From Alphaproteobacteria bacterium (GTDB lineage: Bacteria; Pseudomonadota; Alphaproteobacteria; JANQMY01): a DNA stretch of 55,035 bases. Each line of letters starts with the position of its first letter. The first letter of the stretch is position 1. The notes under the pieces are model-generated. The model was not told the origin of the DNA. It did no database searches and worked only from the letters and a program-made list of their open reading frames with translations. Shown piece by piece: positions 3,046 to 20,404 of the stretch. The stretch covers positions 1-55,035 of the forward strand of contig JANQPL010000015.1 of NCBI GenBank assembly GCA_028289425.1, given 5' to 3'. The position numbers and the translations under genes were made by a program.

Positions 3046-3714
3046 ATGTCTGCTCGACACCTTCAATTCGCGCTCGCCGCGATCTTCATCGGCCTGGGCG
3101 GCTGGTGCCTGCTGATGCCGCACCTTGTGGAAACCTTAGTATTGAAACCCCAATACCAGCATCTGTCGCCCGCCAGCGCCTTGTGGATCGGCTGTTTCGG
3201 CGCGCAGGCCGTGCTGGTGGGAATCGTGATCGCCACCAGTGAATTTCGCGCCCGCACCTTCCTCTTCTTCGGGCTCGCGGGCTCGCTGCCTTTCTTCGTG
3301 TTCAATTGGTATTTCTATTTCGTGGCCGAGATGTTCACCGCATGGATGCTGCTCGATTTTGTAGGTAATCGAGAGCGGCGTGCGGTGAAATGGAACCATT
3401 CTGCCGAGGTCGTTTTGCGTCAGGATCTAGCTGTCCGGCGCAGGCCATACCGGGCGTACGGTCAAGCCGGACGGCGCCGGTCATGGCGCAAAACGGCCCG
3501 GCCCTTTGGGTTTGCGTCCGGCGGCCGCCCGCTGTGTCGAATGGCTCGAGCGATACCCCACATCACTCTTCGCCCTTCTCCTGGCGGATCGGACCGCCGG
3601 ACCGCAAACAGAATTGATTCTATTTCACCGTACGCCGCTCTAGGCATTCTCGCCTGCGGCCTTGCCGGCTGGCGGTTGCTGTCGCGGCAGGAGGCGGGGG
3701 CAGCCCTTCCCTGA
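3046..3714 (+). CDS. Small membrane protein interrupted in frame by a repeat element
   Basis: An open frame of 222 residues that I read as a normal small membrane protein with a foreign segment inside it. Residues 1-108 (MSARHLQFALAAIFIGLGGW onward) contain about four hydrophobic segments and end with WMLLDFVGN. The next roughly 90 residues are Arg-rich and low in hydrophobicity, and coincide with the repeat element at 3370-3643. After the element the frame resumes as LGILACGLAGWRLLSRQEAG, a plausible last membrane helix and charged tail, and stops at 3714. The uninterrupted protein would be about 130 residues. The family is not recognised. Whether the inserted form still folds is unknown. 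The start at 3046 gives the natural MSARH N-terminus; 3025 is an in-frame alternative. Confidence 0.6.
   Translation: MSARHLQFALAAIFIGLGGWCLLMPHLVETLVLKPQYQHLSPASALWIGCFGAQAVLVGIVIATSEFRARTFLFFGLAGSLPFFVFNWYFYFVAEMFTAWMLLDFVGNRERRAVKWNHSAEVVLRQDLAVRRRPYRAYGQAGRRRSWRKTARPFGFASGGRPLCRMARAIPHITLRPSPGGSDRRTANRIDSISPYAALGILACGLAGWRLLSRQEAGAALP
3370..3643. repeat. R1-family inverted-repeat element inserted inside a gene
   Basis: About 274 bp flanked by imperfect terminal inverted repeats: the left end reads GAGAGCGGCGTGCGGTGAAA and the reverse complement of the right end reads CTAGAGCGGCGTACGGTGAA, with similarity continuing to about 37 bp. The interior is GC-rich and self-complementary in parts. 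It resembles the element at the contig edges in end sequence, size, and interior blocks such as GCGCAGGCCATA and TACGGTCAAG. No transposase is encoded, so it is a non-autonomous, MITE-like or palindromic repeat. It keeps one reading frame open across its full length in the orientation of the host gene. Confidence 0.8.
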
Positions 3715-3820
3715 GAGCTGCGCAGTGAATGTTCCGTTGACGAATTAAATAACTCACATGACACCTGATGCTTAGCTGGCCCGACAATCGCCCAGAGGCC
3801 GGAAACCTGATTGATGCCGT

Positions 3821-5743
3821 CTACTGGTCGCTCACCCAAATGGGGGACGACCAGGCCATTTCGGTGACGGTAGCCGGCACAGTGTCCGGCGGTGCTTGAC
3901 CCACACGCAAACTGTCATAGGTGGACCAGCGGCAAGTGGGATTCTGAATTACCCGCGCATAGTAAAAGGCGTTTTGCCCCGGCTTAAGGTCCGGATCCCG
4001 CCACAGGGTTTTCAGTTCGGCCGCCCCGCGCCCGTCTTCCACAGTACAGTTGCTAAGATCCACCGACGCGGTCGTCGGCGGACATCGCTTCGTTTCCGGA
4101 TCCGCCGCGCGGCCTTCACTGCACACCGCGTCGTAGACGGCCTCTTTGGTCTCACCGTTTTCGGTCCATGCCTTTACGATCTGCACTTTGTCGAGCGGCG
4201 CGCTCAACGGGTCCCGCTGCGCCCAGATGAAAAATGCAGGCGCCTGACCGGGCACCGCCGATAGGGTCTGGCCCATGGGCACGCCGGCCCCGAAAGCGGT
4301 TTCCAGCGCATCGGCCCTGTCGACAAGGCCGTCCTCGTAGTCAAATCCACCAAAGAACCGCAGGCGGATTCGGGTGCCGCTGGTGGCATAGACGTGTTTG
4401 TTTTGCATGGCGTCGAACAGAGCCTCGCGGGTGTTTTCCGGCGCCCAGATGGCCGCAAGTCCCCCCGGATTGCGGATCAATCCGGACCGCCCCCCGCGCC
4501 GGCCCGGCGCCAAGCGCCGTTTAGCCGTGGCACTGAACAGGCCCGACGCCCCGCGAAAATCCCATTCCTCCGCATCCCCGGGGTTGGAATTGTGGGTATC
4601 GGTGCTGCCGATCATGCCGAAGCGCAGCGGATTGAAGCCCAGCTCTTCCTCAAGCGTAAGCCCCCTCTTCAGCCCGTCCCGGGCCATGGAGGTGGGATAG
4701 ATGCATTTGGTGGCTTGGCCGTCTTCGCAGCGGGGAAAGAACTGTTCAAAGCCGCATTCTTCATCAGTGGTGCCGATGCCCAAGGCGCATTCCGAATTCC
4801 CTTTGACCTGAAACATCTCCACGATGGGCTCCACGGCGCTGCGCATGGCCCAGTCTCTCTCCGTATACGGATCGCCATCGATGGTGTGACTGGCAAAGGC
4901 AAGCCCCCAAGATTTGTTTGGGTTGTGCGGAATGGTGAGAAACTGGCATGGCGACCGGCACGATTCCGACAATTGCGCCCACAGGTCGATCTCGCTGAGC
5001 GCATCGAAGGCCGAGACAGCATGGGCAGGCACATCGCTTGACCGGAAGATGACGTTGCGGTGGATCTTGCCCGTGTCGGGCAAGGGCGGGGAATATTCGT
5101 AGGCCGCAAACGTGGTGAAGGTGCCGGGTGCGTTGTGACGGTCTGCCACGTCAACAATATGCGCCCAAGTGGAGCGCGCGTATTGGGCGTGCTGCTCCGG
5201 TGATCCCAAGGCGAACCGTTCCGGCGGTCGCATTTCGCCGCGCTGACGCAACATCAGGAAAAAGGCGGCGCTGGGTTGTTCGAACCGCTGGCACAGGGTT
5301 CGGGTTTCGTCGACCGCGTTTTCGTCGCCGCAAGCTTCGTGCAGCCCAAACCCTTCGGCGTGATCGGTCACGGCCGCGAAATCCAGCGGCACCGCAAGCT
5401 GCATGACTTCGCCCACGGGCGATTCCACTGCTTCCCCTTTAGCGACCCGATAGGCTTGATCCACCGTCAGCCGGTTGCCGAAAATATAGCTGTCAAAGGA
5501 CAAATCCGAATGGCTGTGCAAATCGCCGAAATAGACATTGCCTAGGGGGTTGGGCGCCGGCGTTGCAGCGGGCTGGGGCGCTGGCTGGGCAAACGCGTTC
5601 TCATTTTGAGCGGCGGCGACGGCGCGCAGCTCTTCACGGTCCGCTTCCGTTAATACGGGCGCGTTTAGGCGGTTCTGAATGTAGAAATAGCCCAAGGCCA
5701 CCGCCAGCAGAACGGCGGCGCCTACCCCATAGATCCAGCGCAT
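3821..5743 (-). CDS. DUF3604 domain-containing protein (PHP-like), membrane-anchored
   Basis: A 640-residue protein. Residues about 4-22 form a signal anchor (YGVGAAVLLAVALGYFY), followed by an Ala/Pro-rich linker to about 66. The rest matches the DUF3604 family: NVYFGDLHSHSDLSFDS with a metal-site H-S-H motif at residues 76-78, TDHAE at 127-130, a mid-protein NPNKSWG, and MIGSTDTHNSNPG, all typical of PHP-type metallohydrolase folds. Family members are around 600-650 residues, so it looks complete. A GGGAG ribosome binding site precedes the ATG at 5743. It is a lone leftward gene between repeat-bearing gaps. Biochemical activity of DUF3604 proteins is not established; a secreted or periplasmic metal-dependent hydrolase is an inference. 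Confidence 0.88.
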   Translation of the reverse strand: MRWIYGVGAAVLLAVALGYFYIQNRLNAPVLTEADREELRAVAAAQNENAFAQPAPQPAATPAPNPLGNVYFGDLHSHSDLSFDSYIFGNRLTVDQAYRVAKGEAVESPVGEVMQLAVPLDFAAVTDHAEGFGLHEACGDENAVDETRTLCQRFEQPSAAFFLMLRQRGEMRPPERFALGSPEQHAQYARSTWAHIVDVADRHNAPGTFTTFAAYEYSPPLPDTGKIHRNVIFRSSDVPAHAVSAFDALSEIDLWAQLSESCRSPCQFLTIPHNPNKSWGLAFASHTIDGDPYTERDWAMRSAVEPIVEMFQVKGNSECALGIGTTDEECGFEQFFPRCEDGQATKCIYPTSMARDGLKRGLTLEEELGFNPLRFGMIGSTDTHNSNPGDAEEWDFRGASGLFSATAKRRLAPGRRGGRSGLIRNPGGLAAIWAPENTREALFDAMQNKHVYATSGTRIRLRFFGGFDYEDGLVDRADALETAFGAGVPMGQTLSAVPGQAPAFFIWAQRDPLSAPLDKVQIVKAWTENGETKEAVYDAVCSEGRAADPETKRCPPTTASVDLSNCTVEDGRGAAELKTLWRDPDLKPGQNAFYYARVIQNPTCRWSTYDSLRVGQAPPDTVPATVTEMAWSSPIWVSDQ

Positions 5744-5835
5744 TCATGGTCTCCCGACTCACTTTTGGTGGGGCAGACTATAGAGCGGTTCGGTGGCTGC
5801 TGTCCTGACTACGATATGGCGGGGCGTCGTAAGGC

Positions 5836-5870
5836 CTAGAGCGCTTCATCGTCATATTGAATCGTTCTAG
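5836..5870. repeat. Solo 35-bp end of R1-type repeat
   Basis: The 35 bp begin CTAGAGCGCTTCATCG and end TTGAATCGTTCTAG. They match the first and last parts of the 35-bp terminal repeat at the contig edge (CTAGAGC at one end, GATTGAATCGTTCT at the other). The unit starts and ends with CTAG. It overlaps the last three bases of the NTF2-like gene at 5867, whose stop TAG is the repeat's CTAG. Just upstream (5782) a degenerate TATAGAGCGG may be another fragment. Confidence 0.6.
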
Positions 5871-6268
5871 TTTTCGAACACTGCGGAAGTGTCCCCAAAC
5901 AACCGGATGGAGGTCACGAGCCCTTCCTGGTTCTTATCGGTAAAAGCGGCAGCATGCACGGTGACCTTTTTGCCGTCATGACGTTCGTAATGGTTTAAGG
6001 CTTCAAGAACGAATGCCGTATCGGACCCATAGATGTTCGTCAGATCGTGCTCAATGTTCTTGAAACTCTGCCAGAACCCACCAAGCATTTGGACGACGGC
6101 GTTCTTTCCCTCCACCGCTGGAGCATTGCCGAACCGGATTGAAACATCCTCGGCCAAAAACCCTGCGAAGGTTTCGATATCCTTGGCATCAAGCGCGTTC
6201 AGATAACTCAGATAGGCGTCATAAGCATCCGCGCTGAGCTGGTTGATACGGAGGTTTGAGGTGATCAT
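5867..6268 (-). CDS. Nuclear transport factor 2 (NTF2/SnoaL)-like protein
   Basis: A 133-residue protein with an NTF2-like pattern: an N-terminal helix (DAYDAYLSYLNALDAKDIE), GFLAEDVSIRFGN, GKNAVVQMLGGFWQSF and terminal beta strands (VTVHAAAFTDKNQEG, VTSIRLFGD). The length is normal for the fold. The start at 6268 (MITSNLR) has GAGGGA ten bases upstream. The frame ends ...TSAVFEN and the stop codon TAG lies within the solo repeat 5836-5870, so the native C-terminus may have been a few residues longer. NTF2-like proteins include ketosteroid isomerases, polyketide cyclases and non-catalytic binding proteins; no catalytic residues can be assigned here. Confidence 0.75.
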   Translation of the reverse strand: MITSNLRINQLSADAYDAYLSYLNALDAKDIETFAGFLAEDVSIRFGNAPAVEGKNAVVQMLGGFWQSFKNIEHDLTNIYGSDTAFVLEALNHYERHDGKKVTVHAAAFTDKNQEGLVTSIRLFGDTSAVFEN

Positions 6269-6444
6269 CTTGTGGTCCCTCGGTTGCGTGCCACGTGGTT
6301 GCGCGTGTTCCAACCCTAACGAATCACCGTCTCAACCTCCAATCGATTTTTCCAGCGGGCGATATCGAATGGATCAGCATCAGGCCCAACCAAGTTGTTA
6401 GGCCCGCCGCAATGACCCGCCTTGGAAGCCGCGCCTGGCCTTCC

Positions 6445-7275
6445 TCAAACCGCACACTTCATGTCCACATTGGGCCGGTAGAGACCCCGGCCGGTTTCGG
6501 CCAAACGGAACGAGTCGGAAACGCCCACAACGGTTTCGGCAGCACCGAGCGACAAGAAACCGTCATCGGGCATCAGCTTGGAGATCCGGTCCAACACTTT
6601 CGCCTTGGTGTCCGGCTCGAAATAGATGAGCACGTTCCGGCAAAACACCATGTCGAAGCGGCCGAGAGGGGTCAGATCGTCCAGCAGATTAAAGACACGG
6701 AAGTCGACCTTTGTCCTTAAGGCCGGGCTGATCACCCATTTTGCGCCCTGTTCGCGAAAGTAGCTCCGGCGAAAATCGGCCGGCAGCCCGCGATTGACCT
6801 CAAAATCCGTAAACTCGCCGGACTTCGCGCGCCCAACCATTTCCTGGGAGATATCGGTGGCAACGATGTCGATCAACCAGCCGTCGAACATGCCGCTCAT
6901 CTGGTCGAGGATCATGGCCAAGGAATAAGGTTCTTGGCCGCTTGAACATGCCGCACACCAAATCCGAAGGCGCCGTGTCGCCGCGCGCGCTTTGTGAAAA
7001 TACGGCAGGATGAGGTTTCGGAAATTGTCGAATGGCACTTCGTCCCGGAAGAAGAACGATTCGTTTGTGGTCATGGCTTCCATGACGTCGTTGAGAATCT
7101 GTTCACTGACAAATCCGCTCAGCGCCACCACCAGCTCTTCCGCATTTGCGTAACCGTGTTTCTTGGCCACCGGGTTGAGGCGGACTTCGGCCAGATAGGT
7201 TTTGTCCGGCGTTAGTGACAGTCCGGATCGGCTTAAAAGAAAACGGCTCAGCCCTTCGAAATGTTCAGGACTCAT
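6445..7275 (-). CDS. cheR: Chemotaxis protein methyltransferase CheR
   Basis: A 276-residue SAM-dependent methyltransferase that methylates glutamates on chemoreceptors in adaptation. The N-terminal all-alpha domain (residues 1-75, ending in TTNESFFFRD, a CheR signature) is followed by the SAM-binding fold with WCAACSSGQEPYSLAM (about 107-122) and VFCRNVLIYF, the family's post-motif region. The start at 7275 has a perfect AGGAGG, and its ATG overlaps the TGA stop of cheB by 4 bp (ATGA), so translation is coupled. No C-terminal receptor-tail pentapeptide-binding extension is visible. It is the last gene of a leftward cluster DUF454-cheB-cheR. Confidence 0.97.
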   Translation of the reverse strand: MSPEHFEGLSRFLLSRSGLSLTPDKTYLAEVRLNPVAKKHGYANAEELVVALSGFVSEQILNDVMEAMTTNESFFFRDEVPFDNFRNLILPYFHKARAATRRLRIWCAACSSGQEPYSLAMILDQMSGMFDGWLIDIVATDISQEMVGRAKSGEFTDFEVNRGLPADFRRSYFREQGAKWVISPALRTKVDFRVFNLLDDLTPLGRFDMVFCRNVLIYFEPDTKAKVLDRISKLMPDDGFLSLGAAETVVGVSDSFRLAETGRGLYRPNVDMKCAV

Positions 7276-8435
7276 ACTGTGCCTCCTGGTGATGTGGCAA
7301 TTTTGGTGATCAAAGGCCCCACTTCGTTCAGCGGGACAACGGCGTGACAAACGCCCTCTGTGGCGACCGCGCCGGGCATGCCCCACACGGTGCTGGACGC
7401 TTCGTCTTGCGCAATTACAGCGCCGCCCAGTCCGGCGAGCTGCCGGCTGCCCTGCAAACCGTCATGACCCATGCCCGTCAGAATGACAGTCAGAACCTTG
7501 GGCCCAAAAATGTCGCCCAAACTGCGCAACATGGGATCGACGGCGGGACGGCAAAAATTTTCGGGCGGGGTCTGCAGCAATTTGACCTTGGGCGCGGTCG
7601 GCGTGCCGGTGAACGTCATGTGGTAATCGCCCGGCGCCACATAGATGTGACCTTCCTTGATGACTTCGCCGTTCACCGCCTCGGCGGCGGGCCGGCCGGT
7701 CTCTTTCGCCAATCGCTGGGCAAGGATCTTCGTAAACGTGGCCGGCATGTGCTGGGTAATCAAAATCGGCTGCCGGACATCCGGCGAGATGGCGGAAACA
7801 ACCGTGCTAAGGGCCGCCGGCCCGCCCGTTGAGCTGCCGACTGCGATCACCCCCGGCCGTTTTACGGGATCGTCTCGCAGCACGATGCTTTTGCCCCGAT
7901 AGAGGGACGGCCGGGTTTCTTCGGCGGTGGCGGGCTTTGGCGGCCTTGCCGTGCGGCCCACGCTTTGTTTCGACGGCCGAGGGTCCGTCTCCCTCGCGGC
8001 CTGCCCCAGGGTTGTCACCTTGCGCAAGAGTTCGTCGGAGAATTTGGCGCTTCGCATCTCCTCAGATGCGGTCGGCTTTGGAATGTAATCCTTGGCGCCA
8101 AGCGCCAATGCTTCAAGCGCGATGTGGGCGCTGCGCGTGGTGAGTGTCGACACCATGATGATTTGAACCGACGGCTTCAGCTCAAGCAACAAGGGCAGTG
8201 CGGTAAGGCCATCCATGACCGGCATTTCAATGTCGAGGAGAATGACGTCCACATCGTTGCGCTCAAGCACTTTCAGCGCATTCTTGCCGTTGGACGCCGA
8301 CGCGATCACGGCACATTTGTCTTCGGCCTCAAGAAACCGCGACATCAGCCCCCGCACCACGGCGGAATCATCGACCAACATCACGCGAATGGGGTCCGCC
8401 GCCGCGCTGCGATCAATCTTCTTTGCTAATGCCAT
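7272..8435 (-). CDS. cheB: Chemotaxis response regulator protein-glutamate methylesterase CheB
   Basis: A 387-residue two-domain protein. The N-terminal receiver (about 16-135) has the acidic pair at 22-23 (VMLVDDS), the phospho-accepting Asp68 (VILLDIEMPVMDG) and the conserved Lys in DYIPKPT. A linker of about 55 residues leads to the methylesterase domain with the catalytic Ser in AVGSSTGGPAAL, His in ITQHMP and Asp in GMGHDGL. It demethylates or deamidates receptor glutamates and acts against CheR in adaptation. AAGGTGG precedes the ATG; the stop of the upstream DUF454 gene is only 9 bp away, and cheR follows with an ATGA overlap. Confidence 0.97.
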   Translation of the reverse strand: MALAKKIDRSAAADPIRVMLVDDSAVVRGLMSRFLEAEDKCAVIASASNGKNALKVLERNDVDVILLDIEMPVMDGLTALPLLLELKPSVQIIMVSTLTTRSAHIALEALALGAKDYIPKPTASEEMRSAKFSDELLRKVTTLGQAARETDPRPSKQSVGRTARPPKPATAEETRPSLYRGKSIVLRDDPVKRPGVIAVGSSTGGPAALSTVVSAISPDVRQPILITQHMPATFTKILAQRLAKETGRPAAEAVNGEVIKEGHIYVAPGDYHMTFTGTPTAPKVKLLQTPPENFCRPAVDPMLRSLGDIFGPKVLTVILTGMGHDGLQGSRQLAGLGGAVIAQDEASSTVWGMPGAVATEGVCHAVVPLNEVGPLITKIATSPGGTV

Positions 8436-9035: not shown

Positions 9036-11039
9036 TTATTTGCCAAGCCCGTCGATGAACCCTTCGATCTCGGTGCTGAGTTTCGACGCTTGTTCCGACA
9101 ATTCCGTCGCAGACTGAAGCATCTCGGTTGATGCCGCCCCTGACTGGGTCGCCGCCTCGGTCACCCCGGCAATATTGCTGGACACTTCGCGGGTTCCCGA
9201 CGAGGCTTCTTGGGCATTGCGCGAAATCTCCTGTGTGGCCGCACTCTGCTCTTCCACGGCCGATGCGATCGCCGTTGAATTCTCGTCGATCTTCGTGATG
9301 GTTTCGCCGATGCCGCCAATCGCGTTAACCGCCTCTTTGGTGGCGGTCTGCATGCCGCCGATTTGTTCGCCGATTTCTTTCGTGGCTTTGGCGGTTTGGT
9401 CGGCCAGGTTTTTGACCTCCGAGGCCACAACGGCAAACCCCTTGCCCGCATCGCCGGCGCGCGCCGCTTCGATGGTGGCGTTGAGGGCGAGCAGTTTGGT
9501 CTGGCTGGCGATATCGTCGATCAAGCCGACGACTTCGCCGATGGCTTCGGCTGCTTCGGCCAAGCTCTTGATGCCGTCATTGGTGCGGTCTGCCTCTTGA
9601 ACGGCCGACCGGGCGATTTGGGCCGATTGAGTGACCTGGCGCCCGATTTCCTGGGTTGAGCTTGCGAGCTCTTCCGCGGCCGACGCCACGGCCTGAACGT
9701 TGGCGGAGGCCTGTTCCGCTGCGGTGGAAACGGCAGTTGCTTGGCCGCTGGTTTGCTCTGCGGATGTGGACAGGGATTCCGCGGTCGCCTTCAGCTCTTC
9801 GGACGCCGACGACACAACGCCGACCACTTCCTTCACCCGGTCTGCGACCCGGATCTGTTCGGTAACAACGCTCCAGGTGAGCAGCGGGCCGATATAGGTC
9901 CCGGAACTGTCGCGAATGGCCGCCACATTGAGTTCCAGCGTTTCCTCGCCCAGCTTGATCATGGTGCGGTGAGGCAGGTTGGACGGGTCTGCCAGCATCT
10001 TGCGCTGATGGGACGGATTCTTGTGGAAGATGTCGATGGACTGGCCCACAAGCTCGTCCGCCCGGCAGGGCAACAAATGCTCTAGCTGACGCAACGTATC
10101 GATACTCGTCCTGTTGGCGAATGTGATCTTGAAGTCTTCCAGATCGCACATCATGGCGTTGATGGGCATGTTCTGCACCATCTCCATGAGACGCGCATTG
10201 TCGTCGTCTGCCTTTACCTTGTCGGTGACGATGCTCCATGTAAGCATTGGGCCCAGATAATTGCCCTCCCGGTCGCGAATGGCCGAGACATTCAGATCAA
10301 GTATTTCGTCGCCGATTTTGATGTTCGCCTGGTGGGGGAGGTTCGACGGATCCGCCAGCAACCCCCGCTGGTAAGATGGGGTCTTGTGGAAGATATCGAT
10401 CGATTGACCGACAAGCTGGTCCGCCTTAATCGGCAACAGGTGCTCAAGCGTTTTCAGCGTGTTGATGCTGGTGTTGTTAGCGAATGTGATGTCGAACGTT
10501 TCCGGATCGCAAGTCATCACGTTGACCGGCATGTTCTGCACCATCTCCATCAGGCGCGCTGCTTCTTGATCGGCGCGCACCGACTCTGTGACGATGTTCC
10601 ACGTCACCATGGCGGCGATGTATGTGCCGGTGGAGTCGCGCACCGGTGAGATGAGCAGATCCAGGATTTCATCGCCCAGCGTGATCCGGGCGTCATGGGG
10701 CAAGTTGCGGTCATCCGCCAGGATCTTGCGCTGATGCGCGGGGTTTTTGTGGAAGATGTCGATCGATTGCCCGATCAGATCGTCCGCCTTGACCGGCAGT
10801 AAATGTTCGATGCCGCGCAGCGTCCGCAATGTAGAGGCATTCGCATAGTTGATTTTGAAATCCGTCAAATCACACGTGATGATGTTGATGGGCATGTCGT
10901 CGAACATGCGTTCCAGCGACGCAATTTTGTCTTTCAGTTTGTCAACTGAGATTTCTTCTGTGCCGTGACCTTTTTTTTGATCGACACCCATTTCTTCGAT
11001 CGGCGTTTCTAGCGTTTCGCTTTCCAGCGCATTCAACAT
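9036..11039 (-). CDS. Soluble methyl-accepting chemotaxis protein with three PAS domains
   Basis: A 667-residue chemoreceptor with no membrane segment. Three consecutive PAS domains (about 46-150, 167-271, 288-391) are clear internal duplications with a period of about 121 residues. Each carries the near-identical block GQSIDIFHK and LPH about 20 residues later, and the linkers repeat [12 protein letters not shown] signalling domain follows (about 400-660) with the hairpin tip [20 protein letters not shown] and the conserved [16 protein letters not shown]. It should sit in the cytoplasm in arrays with CheA/CheW and sense an internal or diffusible cue such as redox, gas or light through PAS cofactors; the ligand is unknown. 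It lies upstream of DUF454-cheB-cheR on the same strand. Confidence 0.95.
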
Positions 11040-11523: not shown

Positions 11524-11639
11524 TTGGACCTCATGTGCTCGCGCCGAGAAAATGCGTGTACTGACGCTTGGGAATTGGGCCATTTCTAAAATCGGGTACC
11601 AGTGATTTGGAAAAGAGTATTGCCTGGGACAGGACGACG

Positions 11640-12386
11640 ATGATGCCAAGTGCCGACGAGGTACAAGAGCTTGTTGCGCACGTTCCGCTATTTGGATCGC
11701 TAAGATCGGAATCGCTTAAGCACATCTTGGAACAAACCAGCGCCAGATTGGTCGAGGATGGATCCCGCCAATTCATCAGCCGCCACGGTCAAGAGGTGAC
11801 GGATGTCAGCATCATCATGGACGGCTGGGTGATGCGGTACGATCTGCTGGCCGACGGGCGGCGCCAGATTCTGGAGTTCGGGACCTCCGGAGATACGGTC
11901 GGCCCCTTTGGGACGACGGCAACGCATCACCAATACTTCGTCCAAACAATTACGCCGGTGCGGCGCTGGATATTAGACGCCGAAAGCTTTTCCGCCGCGG
12001 CACGAAAGGAGCCGGAGCTGCATCGGCGCCTCACGCTTCTTGCGTTCACCGCCTTGTCCGAACGCGAGGATATGGTGACGGACCTTGGGCGCCGATCGGC
12101 GCCGGAGCGGATCGCCCGGCTGATCCTCAGATTGCTTGCGCGCATGGACCGGGCCGGCAGCTCGAAAGGCAATCAATACGACTTTCCGTTCAAGCAAAGC
12201 CATATCGCCGATGCGACCGGCCTGACGGCCGTCCACGTCAATCGAACGCTGATGAGTTTTCGAAAGTCGAATGCGGTGCGCATCGACAACGGCGTGCTGA
12301 CCGTCGTGAATATCGATGTGCTTTTACTGTTGGCGGAAATGACAATGGCAGATTTCAACGCGCTGAAACGGAAAGGTCCCGCATAA
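11640..12386 (+). CDS. Crp/Fnr family transcriptional regulator
   Basis: A 248-residue regulator. The N-terminal cyclic-nucleotide-binding-like beta roll (about 12-125) includes VSIIMDGWVMRYDLLADGRR and QILEFGTSGDTVGPFG; a dimerisation helix follows, then a helix-turn-helix with QSHIADATGLTAVHVNRTL (about 190-215). It has no cysteine, so it is not an iron-sulfur Fnr, and the Arg-Ser cAMP-binding pair of classical Crp is not evident. It falls with the effector-unknown Crp/Fnr groups common in alphaproteobacteria. Two adjacent ATGs (11640, 11643) follow an AGGAC site. It is convergent with cheW (17-bp gap) and next to chemotaxis genes. Confidence 0.9.
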   Translation: MMPSADEVQELVAHVPLFGSLRSESLKHILEQTSARLVEDGSRQFISRHGQEVTDVSIIMDGWVMRYDLLADGRRQILEFGTSGDTVGPFGTTATHHQYFVQTITPVRRWILDAESFSAAARKEPELHRRLTLLAFTALSEREDMVTDLGRRSAPERIARLILRLLARMDRAGSSKGNQYDFPFKQSHIADATGLTAVHVNRTLMSFRKSNAVRIDNGVLTVVNIDVLLLLAEMTMADFNALKRKGPA

Positions 12387-12403: not shown

Positions 12404-12895
12404 TTACGCATCGAGGGTCTTTTCCGGTGCGCTGACGATTTGGCTGATGTCGAGGACAACCAGCAATTCGGTTTCCAGGCGGAACAAGCCATTCGAGAGC
12501 TCCCGCCACTTTGAATCCAGATTGGCCGGGTTGGGCTCGCATTCCCCCACATTCAATTCGAGCACCTCGCCAACCTCGTCCACCAAAAGGCTGCAGGCTT
12601 CGTCGCCATATTCGACCACGACGCTTTTGGGGCATTGGTCCGGCGAAAAAGGCTCCAGGCCCAACACCACTCGCATGTCGATCACCGTAACAATCCGCCC
12701 ACGGAGGTTAATCGATCCCGACACTTCGGCGGGCGACAAGGGCACCGGCGCAACGGTTTGATGAGACAAAACATCTTGGACTTGAAGCACCGGAATGCCG
12801 AATGTTTGGCCGCCGACCATCAGCGAGAGATATTCTTCGAACCGGCTTCGCTCGGCTTTGGCGCCGGCCTCGTTGAATTGAGCTGTCTGGGTCAT
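12404..12895 (-). CDS. cheW: Chemotaxis adaptor protein CheW
   Basis: A 163-residue CheW-domain protein that links chemoreceptors to CheA. It shows the SH3-like double barrel hallmarks YLSLMVGGQTFGIPVLQVQDVL, SGSINLRGRIVTVIDMRVVLGL and CSLLVDEVGEVLEL, ending with VVLDISQIV. The start at 12895 has GAGGGA upstream and its ATG overlaps the cheA stop by 4 bp (ATGA), so cheA and cheW are translationally coupled. Length is typical. Confidence 0.96.
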   Translation of the reverse strand: MTQTAQFNEAGAKAERSRFEEYLSLMVGGQTFGIPVLQVQDVLSHQTVAPVPLSPAEVSGSINLRGRIVTVIDMRVVLGLEPFSPDQCPKSVVVEYGDEACSLLVDEVGEVLELNVGECEPNPANLDSKWRELSNGLFRLETELLVVLDISQIVSAPEKTLDA

Positions 12896-15828
12896 GCCGC
12901 GTCCCTCGTTTGCTTGGCGCATTCCTTAAGCTTCTTGAGAAGCGAGTCCTTGTTCAGTTTTTCCACATGCGAGGTGAACCCGGCCTCTTCGCAGCGGCTG
13001 ATGTCTTGGGGACTGGCATGGGCTGAAAGGGCGACGATGGGCACTTTGTCGAAGCCCGGATCGCGTCTCAGTTCCGACACGAACCCGAAGCCGTCCATCA
13101 CCGGCATCTCAAGATCGGAAACGATAATGTCGAAGTCGCCGCGGGTCTTGCAAGCTTCAAGACCGATTTCGCCGTTTTCCGCCTGGGTCACCGTGTAGCC
13201 CGCCGCCTCCAAGATCGGGGTCAGCAAATTACGGAAGAACGAGCTGTCATCCACAAGCAGGATCTGATGCGCCGCTTTCTCGCCAAACCCGGCATCGCGC
13301 TGCACGCCGAACCAATCGTCGCAGGCCTGTTTCAGGAAGAACGTGGTGTCGATAAGGTCGGTTGCCCTGCCTTCGATAATGGCCGTGCCGATGGTGCCCG
13401 GCTGGCCGCCTTTCATTTCCACGGTGACATCGGATTCCACGATGTCCACGATGTCGTCGGCCAACAACCCGACCGACCGGCCCTGATCCGAGAACGCAAG
13501 AACCGGTTGCTTGCCTTCGGAGCGGATGATCGTGGTGTCCGACAGGGTGACAAGCGGCATTAAGCGGCCTCGATATTGAATGGAATGCTGTCCGCCCGCA
13601 TCCTCGATCTCGCGCACGTCGATTTCCTCGATCCGCGACACCAGCGCCAACGGCACGGCCTTGGGCGCCCCTTTGCCCGCTTTAAAGATCAACATGGAGG
13701 TTTGCTCGCTTGCGTCCGACTGCTCTTCGATCGCATCCATGGACTGATCGTCGGTGGCGGAGGATTCGCCCGTTACATTGGCAATGCCGATGGGATCGAG
13801 GATCATGATCACACTGCCGTCACCCAAAATGGTGTTGCCCGAATAGATCGGAATGTTGCGCAGCGCCCGCGAAACGGGTTTGACCACAATTTCTTCCGTA
13901 TCGAACACCCGGTCGACAACAATGCCGAACATATAGGTCCCGACCTGGGTGACGATCACATAGGTCTCGTCGTCGCTTCGCTCATCGTCGATTTCGAGAA
14001 GCGATTTGAGAGTCACCAGCGGCAGGAGACGGTCGCGCAAGCGCAGCACCGGCGTGCCTTTCACGCCCTCCATTTTGTAGGTGGAATTTTTCGTCACCCG
14101 CACAAGCTCGATCACGCTGTTCTGCGGCAACGCGAATCTTTGCCCGCCGCATTCAACAATCAGTGCAGAGACGATTGCCAGAGTCAACGGAATCTTGATG
14201 GTGAACCGGGTGCCGCGGCCCGCAATCGAATTGAGTTCGACGGTGCCGCCAATCTTGGCAATATTGCTGCGCACCACATCCATACCCACGCCCCGGCCGG
14301 ACACATTCGTCACCGATTTTGCGGTCGAAAAGCCTGGTTTGAAAATGAACTGATGAATCTGCTGATCCGTGAGCCCCTCCAGCTCGGAATGGGTCGCAAG
14401 GCCATTGGCCAAGATTTTCTCGCGAATGCGGTCGGTGCTCAGGCCATGGCCGTCATCGGACACTTCAACGATGATGTGCCCGCCCTCGTGCCGTGCGCTC
14501 AACGTAATGATGCCGGTTTCGGATTTGCCCGAAGCCCGGCGCCCATCGGTGGTCTCGAGCCCGTGGTCCGCCGCGTTGCGGACCATATGGGTAAGCGGAT
14601 CTTTGATTTCGTCCAGCACCTGCCGGTCGAGTTCCGTCTCCGCGCCCTTCATAACCAGCTCGATTTTTTTGTCGAGTTCCTGCGCCAAGTCGCGGACAAT
14701 CCGCGGCAGTTTCGACCAAGCATTGCCGATGGGCTGCATGCGCGTTTGCATGACGCTTTCCTGCAATTCGGTCGTCACCTGATTGAGCCGCTGGAGCGGC
14801 CCGTTGAAGTCGCTGTCCTTCTGGGTGCGCAATATCTGCATGAGCTGGTTTCGGGTCAGCACCAGCTCGCTCACGACCGTCATCAGGGATTCCAGCACAT
14901 CCACATTGACCCGGATACTGTTTGAGGCCGACCGTTTCGGCTTCGCCGCCGGCGCCTCCGGCTGCTCTTGCGCCGCCGGTTGTTCGGCTTCCGGCGTTGC
15001 GTCGGGCGTCGCATCCCGGCCCAGCACATCACCGCGCACGGTTTCGATCCGGCCTGCGATGGCCCCGACGAGATTGTCGGGCACGTCCAGATCCTTTAGA
15101 GCGTCGCCCAGATGCTCCACCACCGCATCGAAATGCGTGTCGTTCAGGCCTTTTTGCACAAGACCCGCATGGGCACTGCGCAGGTCCCGGCCGTCATACT
15201 CATCCGGCCCCCCAAGGGCTAGGGTCAAAAAGGCCCGCTGCATGCCCTGAAGGCGGTCCATGTCGGTGTCGGCAAAAAAATCGCGCAGGCGCTCGTCGTC
15301 CACCACCCGTTCATAGAAAAGTTCGACAGCCGCATCGACCGACGACAGGCCGCCGATTTGTTCGAAAAGGTTTCCCTCCGCCTGCGGAGCAGATGCCTCC
15401 ACTTCCGGCGCGGCTTGAGTGTCCTGACCGGCATTGCCGTTGTCTGACCCGCCCCCCTTGGCGACCGCATTGAGACGTTCGACCAAGCTGCTGTCGTCGC
15501 CCGCCGGTTCCTTGCCCGTTTGTTCGAGATCGGCGACCAACGCACGAATCTTGTCCAGTGCCTCGAGCACCGGGTTCATCGCTTCCGGCGTCACCGGAAT
15601 GGCGCCGTCGCGGAATTGTCCAAGCACGTTTTCGCCCGCATGGGCCAATCCGGCAAGGCGCGGCAAACCCAAGAACCCGCAGGTTCCCTTTACCGTGTGC
15701 AGTACACGGAAGATATGCGAGATCAGTTCCGGATCGTCCGGGTTTTGTTCGAGGCGGACCAGTTCGCCGTCCAGAAGCTCGATGCTTTCGTTGGTTTCCG
15801 CAATGAATTCGTCGAGAAGATCATCCAT
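12892..15828 (-). CDS. cheA: Hybrid chemotaxis histidine kinase CheA with truncated-haemoglobin-like domain and C-terminal receiver
   Basis: A 978-residue kinase. Order of domains: Hpt (about 1-105, phospho-accepting His44 in LHTVKGTCGF); a truncated-haemoglobin-like domain (about 154-271); an Ala/Pro/Glu linker; dimerisation helices (about 304-365); HATPase with N-box HMVRNAADHGLE and G-boxes DDGHGL and GRGVGMDVV; two CheW-like domains (about 553-690 and 710-840); and a receiver (855-978, Asp905 in VSDLEMPVMDG). The globin segment reads LFEQIGGLSSVDAAVELFYE at its start and has the group I hallmarks: B10 Tyr172, a Gln at E11 (197), a LALGGP turn, and AHAGL with the proximal F8 His220. No P2 domain is evident at that place. 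The usual start ATG at 15828 gives MDDLLDEFIAETNE; a TTG at 15840 is an alternative. Kinase identity is certain; haem binding is inferred. Confidence 0.95.
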   Translation of the reverse strand: MDDLLDEFIAETNESIELLDGELVRLEQNPDDPELISHIFRVLHTVKGTCGFLGLPRLAGLAHAGENVLGQFRDGAIPVTPEAMNPVLEALDKIRALVADLEQTGKEPAGDDSSLVERLNAVAKGGGSDNGNAGQDTQAAPEVEASAPQAEGNLFEQIGGLSSVDAAVELFYERVVDDERLRDFFADTDMDRLQGMQRAFLTLALGGPDEYDGRDLRSAHAGLVQKGLNDTHFDAVVEHLGDALKDLDVPDNLVGAIAGRIETVRGDVLGRDATPDATPEAEQPAAQEQPEAPAAKPKRSASNSIRVNVDVLESLMTVVSELVLTRNQLMQILRTQKDSDFNGPLQRLNQVTTELQESVMQTRMQPIGNAWSKLPRIVRDLAQELDKKIELVMKGAETELDRQVLDEIKDPLTHMVRNAADHGLETTDGRRASGKSETGIITLSARHEGGHIIVEVSDDGHGLSTDRIREKILANGLATHSELEGLTDQQIHQFIFKPGFSTAKSVTNVSGRGVGMDVVRSNIAKIGGTVELNSIAGRGTRFTIKIPLTLAIVSALIVECGGQRFALPQNSVIELVRVTKNSTYKMEGVKGTPVLRLRDRLLPLVTLKSLLEIDDERSDDETYVIVTQVGTYMFGIVVDRVFDTEEIVVKPVSRALRNIPIYSGNTILGDGSVIMILDPIGIANVTGESSATDDQSMDAIEEQSDASEQTSMLIFKAGKGAPKAVPLALVSRIEEIDVREIEDAGGQHSIQYRGRLMPLVTLSDTTIIRSEGKQPVLAFSDQGRSVGLLADDIVDIVESDVTVEMKGGQPGTIGTAIIEGRATDLIDTTFFLKQACDDWFGVQRDAGFGEKAAHQILLVDDSSFFRNLLTPILEAAGYTVTQAENGEIGLEACKTRGDFDIIVSDLEMPVMDGFGFVSELRRDPGFDKVPIVALSAHASPQDISRCEEAGFTSHVEKLNKDSLLKKLKECAKQTRDAA

Positions 15829-16184
15829 GGCAATACGCAATTCTCGGTAATGATGATAACCACGCCGGTGAAGCGTTTCCCCGTCGGGAACGGCTTATGT
15901 TGGATGAGTTTGTTTAATGGACGTTGAAGAGGGCAGGTTTTCCAAGCAAAAACGCTTGATCTGGTTTAATAACACAGATCATTTAAACATCTTATACAAC
16001 TGTTTTACTTGGCTGGGCTGATTTGTTCTTGAAGTTATCTACGTAGGCGGATGACTTTTGGATCAATTACTTTGTCGATTAACTGAAACTTCATCGCCAT
16101 TTACCATCCTGTTCCCGTTTCTCAGTGTACAGCGCGTCACACGAACCGCTGGCGACCGAATGCGTAAAACGGATGGAGGCCGAC
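15829..16184. other. Intergenic region between divergent cheA and cheY
   Basis: About 355 bp without a gene, separating leftward cheA-cheW from rightward cheY-cheZ. The middle (15950-16060) is AT-rich and should hold both promoters. I see no convincing operator palindrome. A short in-frame extension upstream of cheY (from 16125) exists but lacks family similarity. Confidence 0.5.
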
Positions 16185-16571
16185 ATGGCGGTGAATATGG
16201 AAATGCCGATCCTGATTGTGGACGACTACAAAACGATGCTGCGGATTATCCGCAATTTGCTGACGGAAATCGGCTTCAGCAATATTGCGGAGGCAACGGA
16301 CGGCCAAGCCGCGTTCGAGAAACTCAAGAAAGACCGCTTCGACCTGATCATTTCCGATTGGAACATGGAACCGATGACGGGCTACGAGCTGTTGCGCGCG
16401 GTGCGCTCGGACGCGGATCTTCGCAAGACACCGTTCATCATGGTCACCGCCGAAGCAAAAACAGAGAACGTGGTGGCGGCCAAAAAGGCCGGCGTTAGCA
16501 ACTACATCATCAAGCCGTTCAACGCGGCGACGCTGAAACAAAAGATGAAACGGGTCATCGGAAATTTCTAA
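16185..16571 (+). CDS. cheY: Chemotaxis response regulator CheY
   Basis: A 128-residue single receiver domain. It has the acidic pair Asp13/Asp14 (ILIVDDYKTM), phospho-accepting Asp58 (LIISDWNMEPMTG), Thr88 (IMVTAEA) and Lys110 (NYIIKPF), with the NMEPMTGYELL stretch typical of CheY. It is the diffusible signal from CheA to the flagellar motor. GGAGG lies six bases upstream of the ATG at 16185. Its stop overlaps the next start by one base (TAATG), coupling it to the CheZ-like gene. Confidence 0.96.
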   Translation: MAVNMEMPILIVDDYKTMLRIIRNLLTEIGFSNIAEATDGQAAFEKLKKDRFDLIISDWNMEPMTGYELLRAVRSDADLRKTPFIMVTAEAKTENVVAAKKAGVSNYIIKPFNAATLKQKMKRVIGNF

Positions 16572-17020
16572 TGCCGAAAACGCGAATGCACCCTACTGAA
16601 ATGAGAGCGCAGGCAACTGACTTGCTCCGTGAGCAAACTATTTCGGACCAAATCGCCCACGCCAGGTCCCAGATCGATGAGAGCCTTAAAACACTCGATG
16701 ACGCGGCCGACACCATTCTCACCGAAGTCGAGAAGATTCGAGCCGCGGATCTGACGGCGGCCGCCGGAGTCGAGCAAGTGACAGATGCCTGCCGCACCAT
16801 ATTAGAGGCATGCTTGTTCCATGATCTGGTAAGCCAGCGGCTGACCAAAGTGGATGCGGGCCTGGCGGCGTTGACCGGCGACATGGGCGCCCCTCGCGCC
16901 GCGACGGAGCACAGCGCGCCGCCGGTGGCTGACCCGGAAGCCGGACTTCTCAACGGGCCCGCCCTTGGCGATGAGGGCGTCGATCAAGACGATGTGGACC
17001 GGCTTCTCAATTCAGACTGA
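16571..17020 (+). CDS. cheZ: Short CheZ-like chemotaxis phosphatase
   Basis: A 149-residue, mostly helical protein. Residues 83-94 read [12 protein letters not shown], matching the CheZ active-site motif F-x-D-L-x-x-Q, with Asp85 and Gln89 in the positions of the catalytic Asp and Gln. The C-terminus [10 protein letters not shown] resembles the CheY-binding tail of CheZ. It is much shorter than enterobacterial CheZ (about 214), as seen for alphaproteobacterial CheZ-like proteins. It starts one base inside the cheY stop, which supports a role in CheY-P dephosphorylation. Function from motif and context; confidence is good but not complete. Confidence 0.85.
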
Positions 17021-17046: not shown

Positions 17047-18261
17047 ATGAATTATGCGGGGATATTTCGGGAGAAGATCGATGCCCTCAAAGCAGAGGAC
17101 CGGTACCGAATTTTCGCCGAACTGGCGCGCAAGGCCGCAAACCCTCCGTATGCCTCTTATTATACGGCGGATCGCGACCCGGCCGAAATTGCCGTTTGGT
17201 GCAGCAACGACTATTTGGGCATGAGCCGCAATACGGACGTGATTAATGCGCTTCACGACGCCGTCGACCGGTGCGGGGTCGGCTCGGGCGGGACGCGCAA
17301 CATATCCGGCACCAACCATTACCAAGTCGAGCTTGAAGCGGAACTGGCGGATCTGCACCAAAAGGAAAGCGCCTTATTGTTCACATCGGGCTATGTGGCC
17401 AACGACGCTTGCCTGTCCACGGTTAGCCGGCTGCTGCCTGGTTTGGTGATTTTCTCGGATGAACTCAACCATGCGTCCATGATCGAAGGCATCCGCCACG
17501 GCGATGCGGAAAAAAAGATTTTCCGTCACAACGACGCGGAACATTTGGAGCAGCTCCTGCAGGAAACCGACCCGGGGCGCCCTAAACTCATCGCCTTCGA
17601 GTCGGTCTATTCCATGGACGGCGACGTGGCGCCCATCGCCGAGTTTGCCCGCCTGGCCAAGCGCTTCGGGGCACTCACTTATTTAGACGAAGTGCACGCG
17701 GTGGGCATGTATGGCACACGCGGCGGCGGCATCGCGGAACGCGACGATGTGATGGGCGACATCGACATCATTCAGGGCACGCTGGCCAAGGCCTTCGGGG
17801 TCATGGGCGGGTATGTCACCGGCGACGCGGTGCTGATCGACTGCCTTCGAAGCTATGCCCCCGGCTTTATTTTCACCACCTCTTTGGCGCCACCCCTTGC
17901 CGCGGCCGCGCTTACCAGCGTGCGGCACTTGAAGAGCAGCCAAATGGAGCGGGCGCGCCATCAGGAACGGGCCGCCACGCTCAAGAAAATGCTGACATCG
18001 GCGGGGATACCGATCATGAAATCCGAGACCCACATCGTGCCGGTGATGGTGGGCGATCCGGTGAAATGCAAAGAGATCTGCGACCGCCTGCTGAACGATC
18101 ACGGCATCTACGTGCAACCGATCAATTACCCAACAGTCCCGCGCGGCACCGAGCGCTTGCGCCTGACGCCGACCCCGCTGCACACGGATTGGATGATGGA
18201 GGCGCTGGTGAGCGCCCTGAGCGAGATTTGGCACGGCCGCAGTCTTGAGAAAGTGGCCTAA
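17047..18261 (+). CDS. hemA: 5-aminolevulinate synthase (ALAS)
   Basis: A 404-residue PLP enzyme of the alpha-oxoamine synthase family that condenses glycine with succinyl-CoA in the C4 (Shemin) route to haem. It shows CSNDYLGMS near 52-60, [20 protein letters not shown] (79-98), the [10 protein letters not shown] aspartate site and the PLP lysine Lys248 in [12 protein letters not shown]. The full-length match to the alphaproteobacterial enzyme is clear ([20 protein letters not shown] at the N-terminus). It lies 26 bp after the CheZ-like gene on the same strand. Haem supply next to a CheA with a globin-like domain may be coincidence. Confidence 0.97.
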
Positions 18262-18384: not shown

Positions 18385-18831
18385 GTGGTCACGCAACTCA
18401 TCTACATTTCTCAGCCTACGGATGTGTTTTCCAATGACGAGATTGGCGCGCTGCTCAATGATGCGCGCGAGCACAACAGCGCACATCAGATCACTGGTTT
18501 CTTATTGTTTGACGGGCAGGAATTCATCCAATTGATCGAGGGCCCCGCGGCCAAGGTGGACGCCTTGTTTGCCAACATCGAAGCCGATAATCGGCATAAG
18601 AATGTTCAAGTGCTGATCAAGGAAGATGGCCAGGACCGCGTTTTCGAGGACTGGTCCATGGCCTATACCTTTTTGGATGATACGTCCGCCCAGCGTTTTG
18701 GCGGGTCCATGTCGGATGCGAGCGCCTCTGCGATCTCGGAACTGATCAGTTCACAAACCAGTGCCACTTTGCGCCTGATTTCGGGCCTGTTCGACAAGGT
18801 CTCCAACCCGGTCGAAGCCTTGAGCGCCTGA
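18385..18831 (+). CDS. BLUF-domain blue-light photoreceptor
   Basis: A 148-residue flavin photoreceptor made of one BLUF domain (about 1-95) and a short helical C-terminus. The key residues are all present: Tyr7 (LIYIS), Asn31, Gln49 (FIQLIEGP) and Trp90-Ser-Met92 (DWSMAY). It should bind FAD and undergo the BLUF red shift in blue light. It starts with GTG at 18385 behind TAGGGAG. It has no output domain, so it must act through a partner; the convergent REC-EAL phosphodiesterase next door is the obvious candidate, by analogy with BLUF PapB and EAL protein PapA of Rhodopseudomonas. Confidence 0.93.
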   Translation: MVTQLIYISQPTDVFSNDEIGALLNDAREHNSAHQITGFLLFDGQEFIQLIEGPAAKVDALFANIEADNRHKNVQVLIKEDGQDRVFEDWSMAYTFLDDTSAQRFGGSMSDASASAISELISSQTSATLRLISGLFDKVSNPVEALSA

Positions 18832-18993: not shown

Positions 18994-20214
18994 CTACCTA
19001 CCGCCTGTTGCCACCGTCCTCAGAAGGCTTCTTTCACACGCCGCATCACCCTGTGCCGGGACGGCGTGCATGGCAAGCAACGGCAGTAATTCATCGGCGT
19101 CCACAGGCTTCCAAAAATAGAACCCCTGAGCCCGCTCACACCCCATATCGTGCAAGATATTCAACGCTGCTTCGGTCTCGACACCCTCAGCACACACGTT
19201 AAGTCCAAGTCTGTGCGCCAGGTCTATCGTCGATCGGACGATGTCTCGGGCATCGGACTGCGATGGCAACTCGGAAATGAAAGACCGGTCAATCTTAACG
19301 TCGCTGAACGGCATTTGCTGCAACTGGCGGAGAGACGAATGCCCGATACCAAAATCGTCGATCGACAAGCGAATGCCCAACAGACGCAGTCGAATCAATG
19401 TCTCCATAACCTGGTTCACGTCGGAAACGACATCGCGTTCCGTTATTTCAAGAATGAGATCCGATGCGGATACGGAGTGCTTCTGCAGAACCATTGTCAT
19501 CCAGACCGGTAAGGAGTCCTGCGAGAGGAAACTTACCGGAACGTTGACCGAAACCGGAAGTTCGTAGCCCCCTTCCTGCCAGCGTGAAACTTGACGCAAA
19601 GCCCCGTCGAGGACAAACAAAGTGAGGTCGACAATTAAGTCACTTGTCTCGACAAAGGGGATAAAGTCTCTCGGGGGCAACAAACCGTGACGGGGATGAT
19701 TCCAGCGTACAAGCGCTTCACAAGATTTGATGGTGGGTGTCGTCTTGTTCCGAATGTCGACAATCGGCTGGTAGTGAATTGTGAGCTGATCTTCCAACAG
19801 CGCGTTGCGAAACTCATCTACAGTGAACACCGGACACTGCCGGCCGAGGGCGTCGAGAGTTCTTTCTAGGTCAGCGATCGTGAAAGGCTTCCGCAACGTG
19901 CCAACGACCGACAATCCTCTTGCTTTAGCGATGCGTTCGGCAGTTCCAAGAACTCTCGCATCCAAATTGCTCATAAGGACAATCGGCACCCGGAAGTTTC
20001 TCTCCGCCAGGAAGCTGAGCATGCTGATGCCGTCTTCTCCGGACAGACCGAGGTCCAGGACCAATGCCGATGGCGGTTGTGTACTGACAGTCGACCTGAA
20101 TCCGTCACCGTCATGCACGACAAAAACGTCGAAACCACACTCTTTGGCGGCATTCGAGATCTGATTGCAGACACTCAGTTCGCCGTCAATGATAAGCAGC
20201 CTGTTGGAGTTCAT
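18994..20214 (-). CDS. Response regulator with EAL c-di-GMP phosphodiesterase domain
   Basis: A 406-residue protein: a receiver (about 4-122, Asp54 in LVLDLGLSGEDG, Lys109 in TLRKPF; the usual N-terminal acidic pair is IDGE) followed by an EAL domain (about 135-395). The EAL motif is intact (CEALVRWNHPRHG), as are ITERD, DDFGIGHSSLRQL, VKIDRSF and CAEGVET, so c-di-GMP hydrolysis is expected. The ATG at 20214 has AAGGAA upstream. It is convergent with the BLUF gene and may be its output partner. Upstream on the same strand lies a hypothetical gene at 20405. Confidence 0.93.
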   Translation of the reverse strand: MNSNRLLIIDGELSVCNQISNAAKECGFDVFVVHDGDGFRSTVSTQPPSALVLDLGLSGEDGISMLSFLAERNFRVPIVLMSNLDARVLGTAERIAKARGLSVVGTLRKPFTIADLERTLDALGRQCPVFTVDEFRNALLEDQLTIHYQPIVDIRNKTTPTIKSCEALVRWNHPRHGLLPPRDFIPFVETSDLIVDLTLFVLDGALRQVSRWQEGGYELPVSVNVPVSFLSQDSLPVWMTMVLQKHSVSASDLILEITERDVVSDVNQVMETLIRLRLLGIRLSIDDFGIGHSSLRQLQQMPFSDVKIDRSFISELPSQSDARDIVRSTIDLAHRLGLNVCAEGVETEAALNILHDMGCERAQGFYFWKPVDADELLPLLAMHAVPAQGDAACERSLLRTVATGGR

Positions 20215-20404
20215 TGGCCTACATTCCTTAAATATCTGAAACGACAAGGGACACCGCAATTGTGTTGCATCTTGCGATCAGCTTCAGACGCGAAGAATTT
20301 GGTTTGATCTCGCTCCCGTCTTGGCCTCGATTTTCCAGGGGCGACGGGCCATGCACGATCTCCGTTCCGGTAAGGCCGGGTCGCTATTGCCACCCCCATG
20401 CAGG

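Follow-up and report, generated by a model that had tools for sequence, protein, structure and literature searches.

The question raised by this locus is whether the chemotaxis kinase CheA can carry a haem sensor of its own. In the window, by which we mean the whole 55,035-nucleotide stretch analysed, an earlier note had read a group I truncated globin (residues about 154-271) between the Hpt domain and the dimerisation helices of a CheA protein, and had proposed either that the kinase itself may sense gas or that the globin replaces the P2 domain. The cheA gene (12892-15828, minus strand) begins with an ATG at 15828, ends at 12892 and encodes 978 amino acids. Pfam recovers, in this order, Hpt, Bac_globin, H-kinase_dim, HATPase_c, two CheW stretches and Response_reg, which confirms the placing of the globin as well as the two CheW-like domains and the built-in receiver that had been described. 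The Hpt domain (P1, residues 1-110; 15499-15828; PF01627 at residues 2-95, E 9.7e-16) holds an HTVKG phosphorylation motif whose His44 is invariant in 12 CheAs. It is followed by a first linker (residues 111-152; 15373-15498), predicted to be disordered at 126-151 (pLDDT <50), by the globin segment (residues 153-270; 15019-15372) and by a second, likewise predicted disordered linker (residues 271-300; 14929-15018; pLDDT <50 at 270-308). Beyond these lie the dimerisation domain (P3, residues 301-361; 14746-14928; PF02895), the HATPase_c kinase domain (P4, residues 409-548; 14185-14604; PF02518), the first CheW-like domain (P5, residues 554-682; 13783-14169; PF01584), a second PF01584 stretch in a segment conserved in relatives (residues about 690-840; 13309-13761) and the receiver (residues 855-965; 12934-13266; PF00072), all on the minus strand. 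With Hpt, dimerisation, HATPase and CheW domains in place and with His44, the N-box and the G-boxes conserved, the protein is a CheA with its catalytic motifs. The AF2 model of the full-length protein was poor (mean pLDDT 59.9), and no inter-domain contacts were taken from it.

Is the inserted segment a globin that could hold haem? The Pfam model PF01152 (Bac_globin) matches residues 152-267 with 68.6 bits, well above the cut-off of 21 (E 7.1e-19; profile positions 1-119 of 121), and it was the only globin model that Pfam reported for this CheA, with no S-globin or protoglobin domain. Searching the PDB with the segment retrieved Synechocystis cyanoglobin (1.3e-31), Tetrahymena truncated haemoglobin and M. 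tuberculosis HbN (1idr, 2e-20). An AF2 model of the domain, built from 15 sequences, reached pLDDT values of 85-96 over the greater part of its length and fell to about 64 at the EF loop. Its predicted 2-on-2 globin fold was superposed by Foldseek on many group I truncated haemoglobins, haem-bound ones included, with target-normalised TM scores of up to 0.91 and rmsd values of 1.4-1.7 Å. Ranking by structure placed truncated globins far above the DosC sensor globin (VIA-align Z of 19.9 to trHbN 1s56 against 10.7 to DosC). The haem-pocket residues are Tyr172 (B10), Phe185 (CD1), Leu193 (E7), Gln197 (E11) and His220 (F8), and the alignment bears out the numbering given earlier for B10, E11 and F8. 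All seven compared pocket positions are those of M. tuberculosis trHbN, and the trHbN family was matched independently in the PDB (1idr). By homology and predicted structure, then, residues 153-270 are a group I truncated globin, as the earlier reading had it, and the domain likely binds haem. It resembles trHbN and Synechocystis GlbN in fold, in haem-pocket residues and in sequence (about 36-50% identity over the domain), but those are stand-alone proteins, whereas the window globin sits within a chemotaxis kinase.

The globin occupies the place in which a P2 domain would be sought. Pfam detected no P2 in the window CheA, in agreement with the earlier note, and none in nine relatives of the same type (eight without a globin, and L101 with a degenerate one); in a published survey, P2 is absent from over half of CheAs (PMC10782961). 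Among CheAs in which both flanking domains could be placed, the spacing between Hpt and dimerisation domain is two-peaked, with 76-175 amino acids in 75 of 76 proteins without a globin and 182-259 in those with one, some of the globin rows being duplicate copies of one locus. The single exception (L084, 6207-9230) has a region of 199 amino acids without detectable globin or P2. Since the globin-less relatives have just the shorter linker, with no P2 in those checked, the globin would have been added to a P2-less kinase, and its simple substitution for P2, the second of the two original proposals, is rejected. Compared with the P2-less CheA with receiver and two CheW domains described in the survey (PMC10782961), the window CheA has all core domains in common and adds a globin in the P1-P3 linker.

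How widespread is this arrangement? We searched 387 alphaproteobacterial genomes with a profile built from four CheA globins and, over the same draw, with the CheA core, which showed this kinase type in 153 genomes at E ≤1e-80. Globin-carrying CheAs, a count of which had been called for, occurred in 22 of these genomes, spread over 12 family codes; a draw of 397 genomes from the phylum added two further family codes (f173 and f176), making 14, and showed no globin-CheA outside the Alphaproteobacteria. Because the fusion recurs across genomes, with examples in L023 (from the second species of the genus), G090 and about 20 more, it is no artefact of assembly or reading frame. Cultured carriers include Dongia mobilis and Dongia deserti. 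On the CheA-core tree the presence of the globin is patchy, requiring eight changes by parsimony, of which the starred branches force at least two. In the globin tree, where many forks stay open, CheA, MCP and lone globins are intermingled. The CheA globin may have arisen once or more than once.

Related globins were also observed outside CheA. G254 and G175 carry one at the N-terminus of a haem-PAS MCP instead of on CheA, and a partial globin-MCP occurs in L155. In L153 (4464-7328), one frame of 955 amino acids runs from a globin through four Aer2-type PAS domains to an MCP signalling domain, and no globin is present in the three CheAs retrieved from the same genome. In L154 (7479-8684), a truncated globin that no longer has the proximal His forms the C-terminal part of a CheW. 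A frame of 602 amino acids from another class (L152, 3357-5162) has a truncated globin at its C-terminal end and matched no CheA domain. Within flanks of about 3 kb, lone globins of the same clade had no che genes beside them, except for a receiver near one.

Between the window and L023, dN/dS is 0.075 for the globin, 0.005 for Hpt and 0.03 for the dimerisation domain, against 0.32 and 0.37 for the first and second linkers that flank the globin. Towards the more distant L068, at which synonymous sites are saturated, identity is 61% in the globin and 38% and 4% in the linkers. The globin is constrained; its tethers are not. These values bear on whether the domain could be a chance, chimeric or decaying insertion without function. 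The patchy distribution on the CheA tree would suit such an origin, but the strength of the Pfam match (E 7e-19), the 14 family codes, the low dN/dS and the intact pocket make it highly improbable, and for the window lineage recurrence, constraint and intact pocket refute a chance or decaying insertion.

The state of the pocket varies within the family. The full set of Tyr/Leu/Gln/His is found in the CheA globins of the window, L023, L068, L111 and L045 and in the CheW-inserted globins of L044 and L048. The latter two loci (3354-6953 and 2-2620; genomes G062 and G080) encode CheAs with two globins each, the second lying inside the first CheW domain. The F8 His is kept with altered distal residues in L025-L029, L049, L050, L051, L058 and the linker globins of L044 and L048, and it is lost in Dongia, L032, L052/L053, L054/L055, L057, L101, the paralogue L022 and L148-L151, the last four judged by reading the sequences. 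In terms of lineages, the proximal His has gone and the domain has been kept in Dongia, f85, f101, f10, f130, f173/f176 and the same-genus paralogue, so that in several lineages, at least six, the fold has persisted after the haem site was lost and has some value without haem. It is mainly for this reason that a structural role stays live, in which the globin would be a docking module in the topological place of P2, binding a partner or spacing P1, with haem optional or vestigial. The loss of the proximal His in the same-genus paralogue and in the CheW-globin of G332 agrees with such a role, and so does the position of the globin between two disordered linkers, as is the case for P2. Nevertheless, the window lineage keeps a full pocket in a domain under purifying selection, full pockets track with haem-PAS receptors (see below), and no P2 that could have been replaced is detectable in the relatives without a globin that were checked. 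We consider a structural or docking role of this kind rather unlikely.

The remainder of the chemotaxis machinery in the same genome gives the kinase its context. The assembly is 99.75% complete and yielded one H-kinase_dim match (the window CheA), one MCPsignal match and one Bac_globin match, together with flagellin (three matches) and FliM. The only MCP detected (9036-11039, minus strand) combines three Aer2-type haem-PAS domains with an MCP signalling domain and is predicted to be soluble, since none of its hydrophobic stretches has the length of a membrane helix (maximum 19-residue mean 1.07). Its PAS domains match the Aer2 haem-PAS structures 3vol and 4hi4 as well as 6ceq (two PAS domains aligned individually), and all three have the His of the FHK(N/T)P motif (His97/218/339) and a Trp near the domain end (Trp147/268/389). 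Of the two motif His residues, the one listed is taken as the counterpart of the haem ligand of Aer2. In P. aeruginosa Aer2, haem is ligated by H234 (PMC13401364). With Aer2-related PAS domains and the predicted haem-ligating His, the window MCP is by sequence an Aer2-type haem-PAS chemoreceptor, for which binding of haem and O2 is predicted.

On the minus strand of the same region lie a CheW coupling protein (12404-12922, start maybe at 12901; PF01584, E 3e-31) and, by Pfam, CheB (7272-8435) and CheR (6445-7275, its start set at an internal ATG of an ORF that reaches 7386). Divergent from cheA, on the plus strand, are a CheY-like receiver (16167-16571; PF00072, E 2.6e-29) and, overlapping its stop, a CheZ-like protein of 149 amino acids (16571-17020), which on a weak Pfam CheZ match (E 0.09) and its position is possibly a CheY-P phosphatase. 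Downstream in the same direction follows hemA (17047-18261, plus strand; TIGR01821, 646.8 bits, cut-off 338.55), encoding 5-aminolevulinate synthase, the first step of haem synthesis. The same order is found in L023, but hemA is not adjacent to the other globin-CheA loci examined, and its position beside the che genes may be coincidental. A Crp/Fnr-type regulator (11568-12386, plus strand), nearest to FixK/Fnr models though below the family cut-offs, lies between cheW and the MCP gene. Beyond hemA, a BLUF blue-light sensor protein (18385-18831, plus strand) stands beside a receiver-plus-EAL-like protein (18994-20259, minus strand).

A pocket of this kind could also serve chemistry rather than sensing. 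The trHbN protein is a known NO dioxygenase, and the CheA globin, whose Tyr B10, Leu E7 and Gln E11 make up the trHbN site, is the only T-globin in the genome; it might act as an NO dioxygenase or as a local sink for O2/NO, protecting or tuning the haem-PAS receptor of the array, and be no sensor. Bulk detoxification, however, needs no fusion to a kinase, no reductase partner adjoins the CheA globin, and MCP and CheW proteins carry related globins too; we regard this possibility as unlikely.

Does an intact pocket go together with haem-based receptors elsewhere? We searched the three-PAS region in 80 genomes with the window CheA type, counting presence at E ≤1e-30. An Aer2-type PAS protein was present in all seven genomes with a full-pocket CheA globin (G000, G001, G090, G271, G080, G062 and G177), in 19 of the 54 without a globin and in 3 of the 19 with altered globins. 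The Fisher p values of the full-pocket class are 0.0015 against no globin and 0.0002 against altered globins, and they are optimistic, as the threshold was set after the results had been seen, the genomes are not independent samples and the seven full-pocket genomes represent five family codes, hence a smaller effective number. When any globin-CheA was counted irrespective of its pocket, no association with Aer2-type PAS proteins appeared (p 0.81), so that only the full-pocket class associates. G271, which is not near the window clade on the CheA tree, has a single detected MCP, and the four PAS domains of this protein carry the FHxNP motif. The median number of MCPs is 4 where the CheA globin keeps the F8 His (n=11) and 14 where there is no globin (n=72, one search listing at most 38 matches), in a comparison made irrespective of relatedness and genome size.

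Taken together, these observations make it on balance probable that the CheA of the window binds haem and that its globin supplies the kinase with an input for gas. On this view, the flexible linker between P1 and P3 of a CheA without P2 would have received a haem-binding truncated globin of group I, which in the window lineage would most likely bind O2 (or NO). The domain would then be a second, kinase-borne gas input to an array whose sole detected receptor is the soluble MCP with three haem-PAS domains. A ligand-dependent change of the tethered globin might alter the reach of P1 to P4, or the packing of CheA in the array, and with it the flow of phosphoryl groups to CheY and to the receiver of the kinase itself. 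The original suggestion that the kinase may sense gas gains circumstantial support from the complete pocket, from purifying selection, from the only CheA detected being paired with a haem-PAS protein as the only MCP detected, from the co-occurrence of full pockets with PAS proteins and from the globins on MCP and CheW; haem loading, the identity of the ligand and regulation of kinase activity are what we infer from them. Two observations count against this explanation: the disordered linkers on both sides of the globin do not suggest rigid coupling, and several lineages have lost the proximal His while the globin domain stays.

A search of open-licence PMC papers found no description of a globin in CheA. 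The abstract of the CheA survey states that CheA lacks a sensor domain, and its main text makes no mention of a globin (PMC10782961). Globin-coupled sensors such as HemAT likewise join a globin to the chemotaxis machinery with a predicted gas input, but there a globin of the sensor/protoglobin lineage sits on the receptor, whereas in the window a truncated globin sits on the kinase. Another related protein is Cc_4972 of Corallococcus (PAS, Bac_globin and MCPsignal), predicted in silico to serve aerotaxis (PMC6194562); it shares the PF01152 globin and the PAS domain and is resembled by L153, but it carries its globin on an MCP instead of CheA. The RsbR globins of stressosomes, including an O2-sensing version (PMC4976288), are also globin modules of a large signalling assembly, and whether they carry haem depends on the lineage, but they belong to a different globin family and have a different output.

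If a conserved haem globin in CheA is borne out, the central kinase, and not the receptors alone, would take up a signal. Kinase-borne and receptor-borne inputs could be separated by single mutations, at H220 of CheA and at H97, H218 or H339 of the MCP, and a family with full-pocket and haem-less versions would let the role of the domain in the presence and absence of haem be tested directly. That all detected inputs of this cell are haem-based, with three haem-PAS domains on the only receptor and a globin on the only kinase, so that CheA has a haem sensor of its own, is a prospect we hold at slightly short of even, and gases, oxygen or NO among them, may be all that steers the cell. As a single CheA and a single MCP were detected, the organism offers a very small chemotaxis system in which steering on gas alone could be studied.
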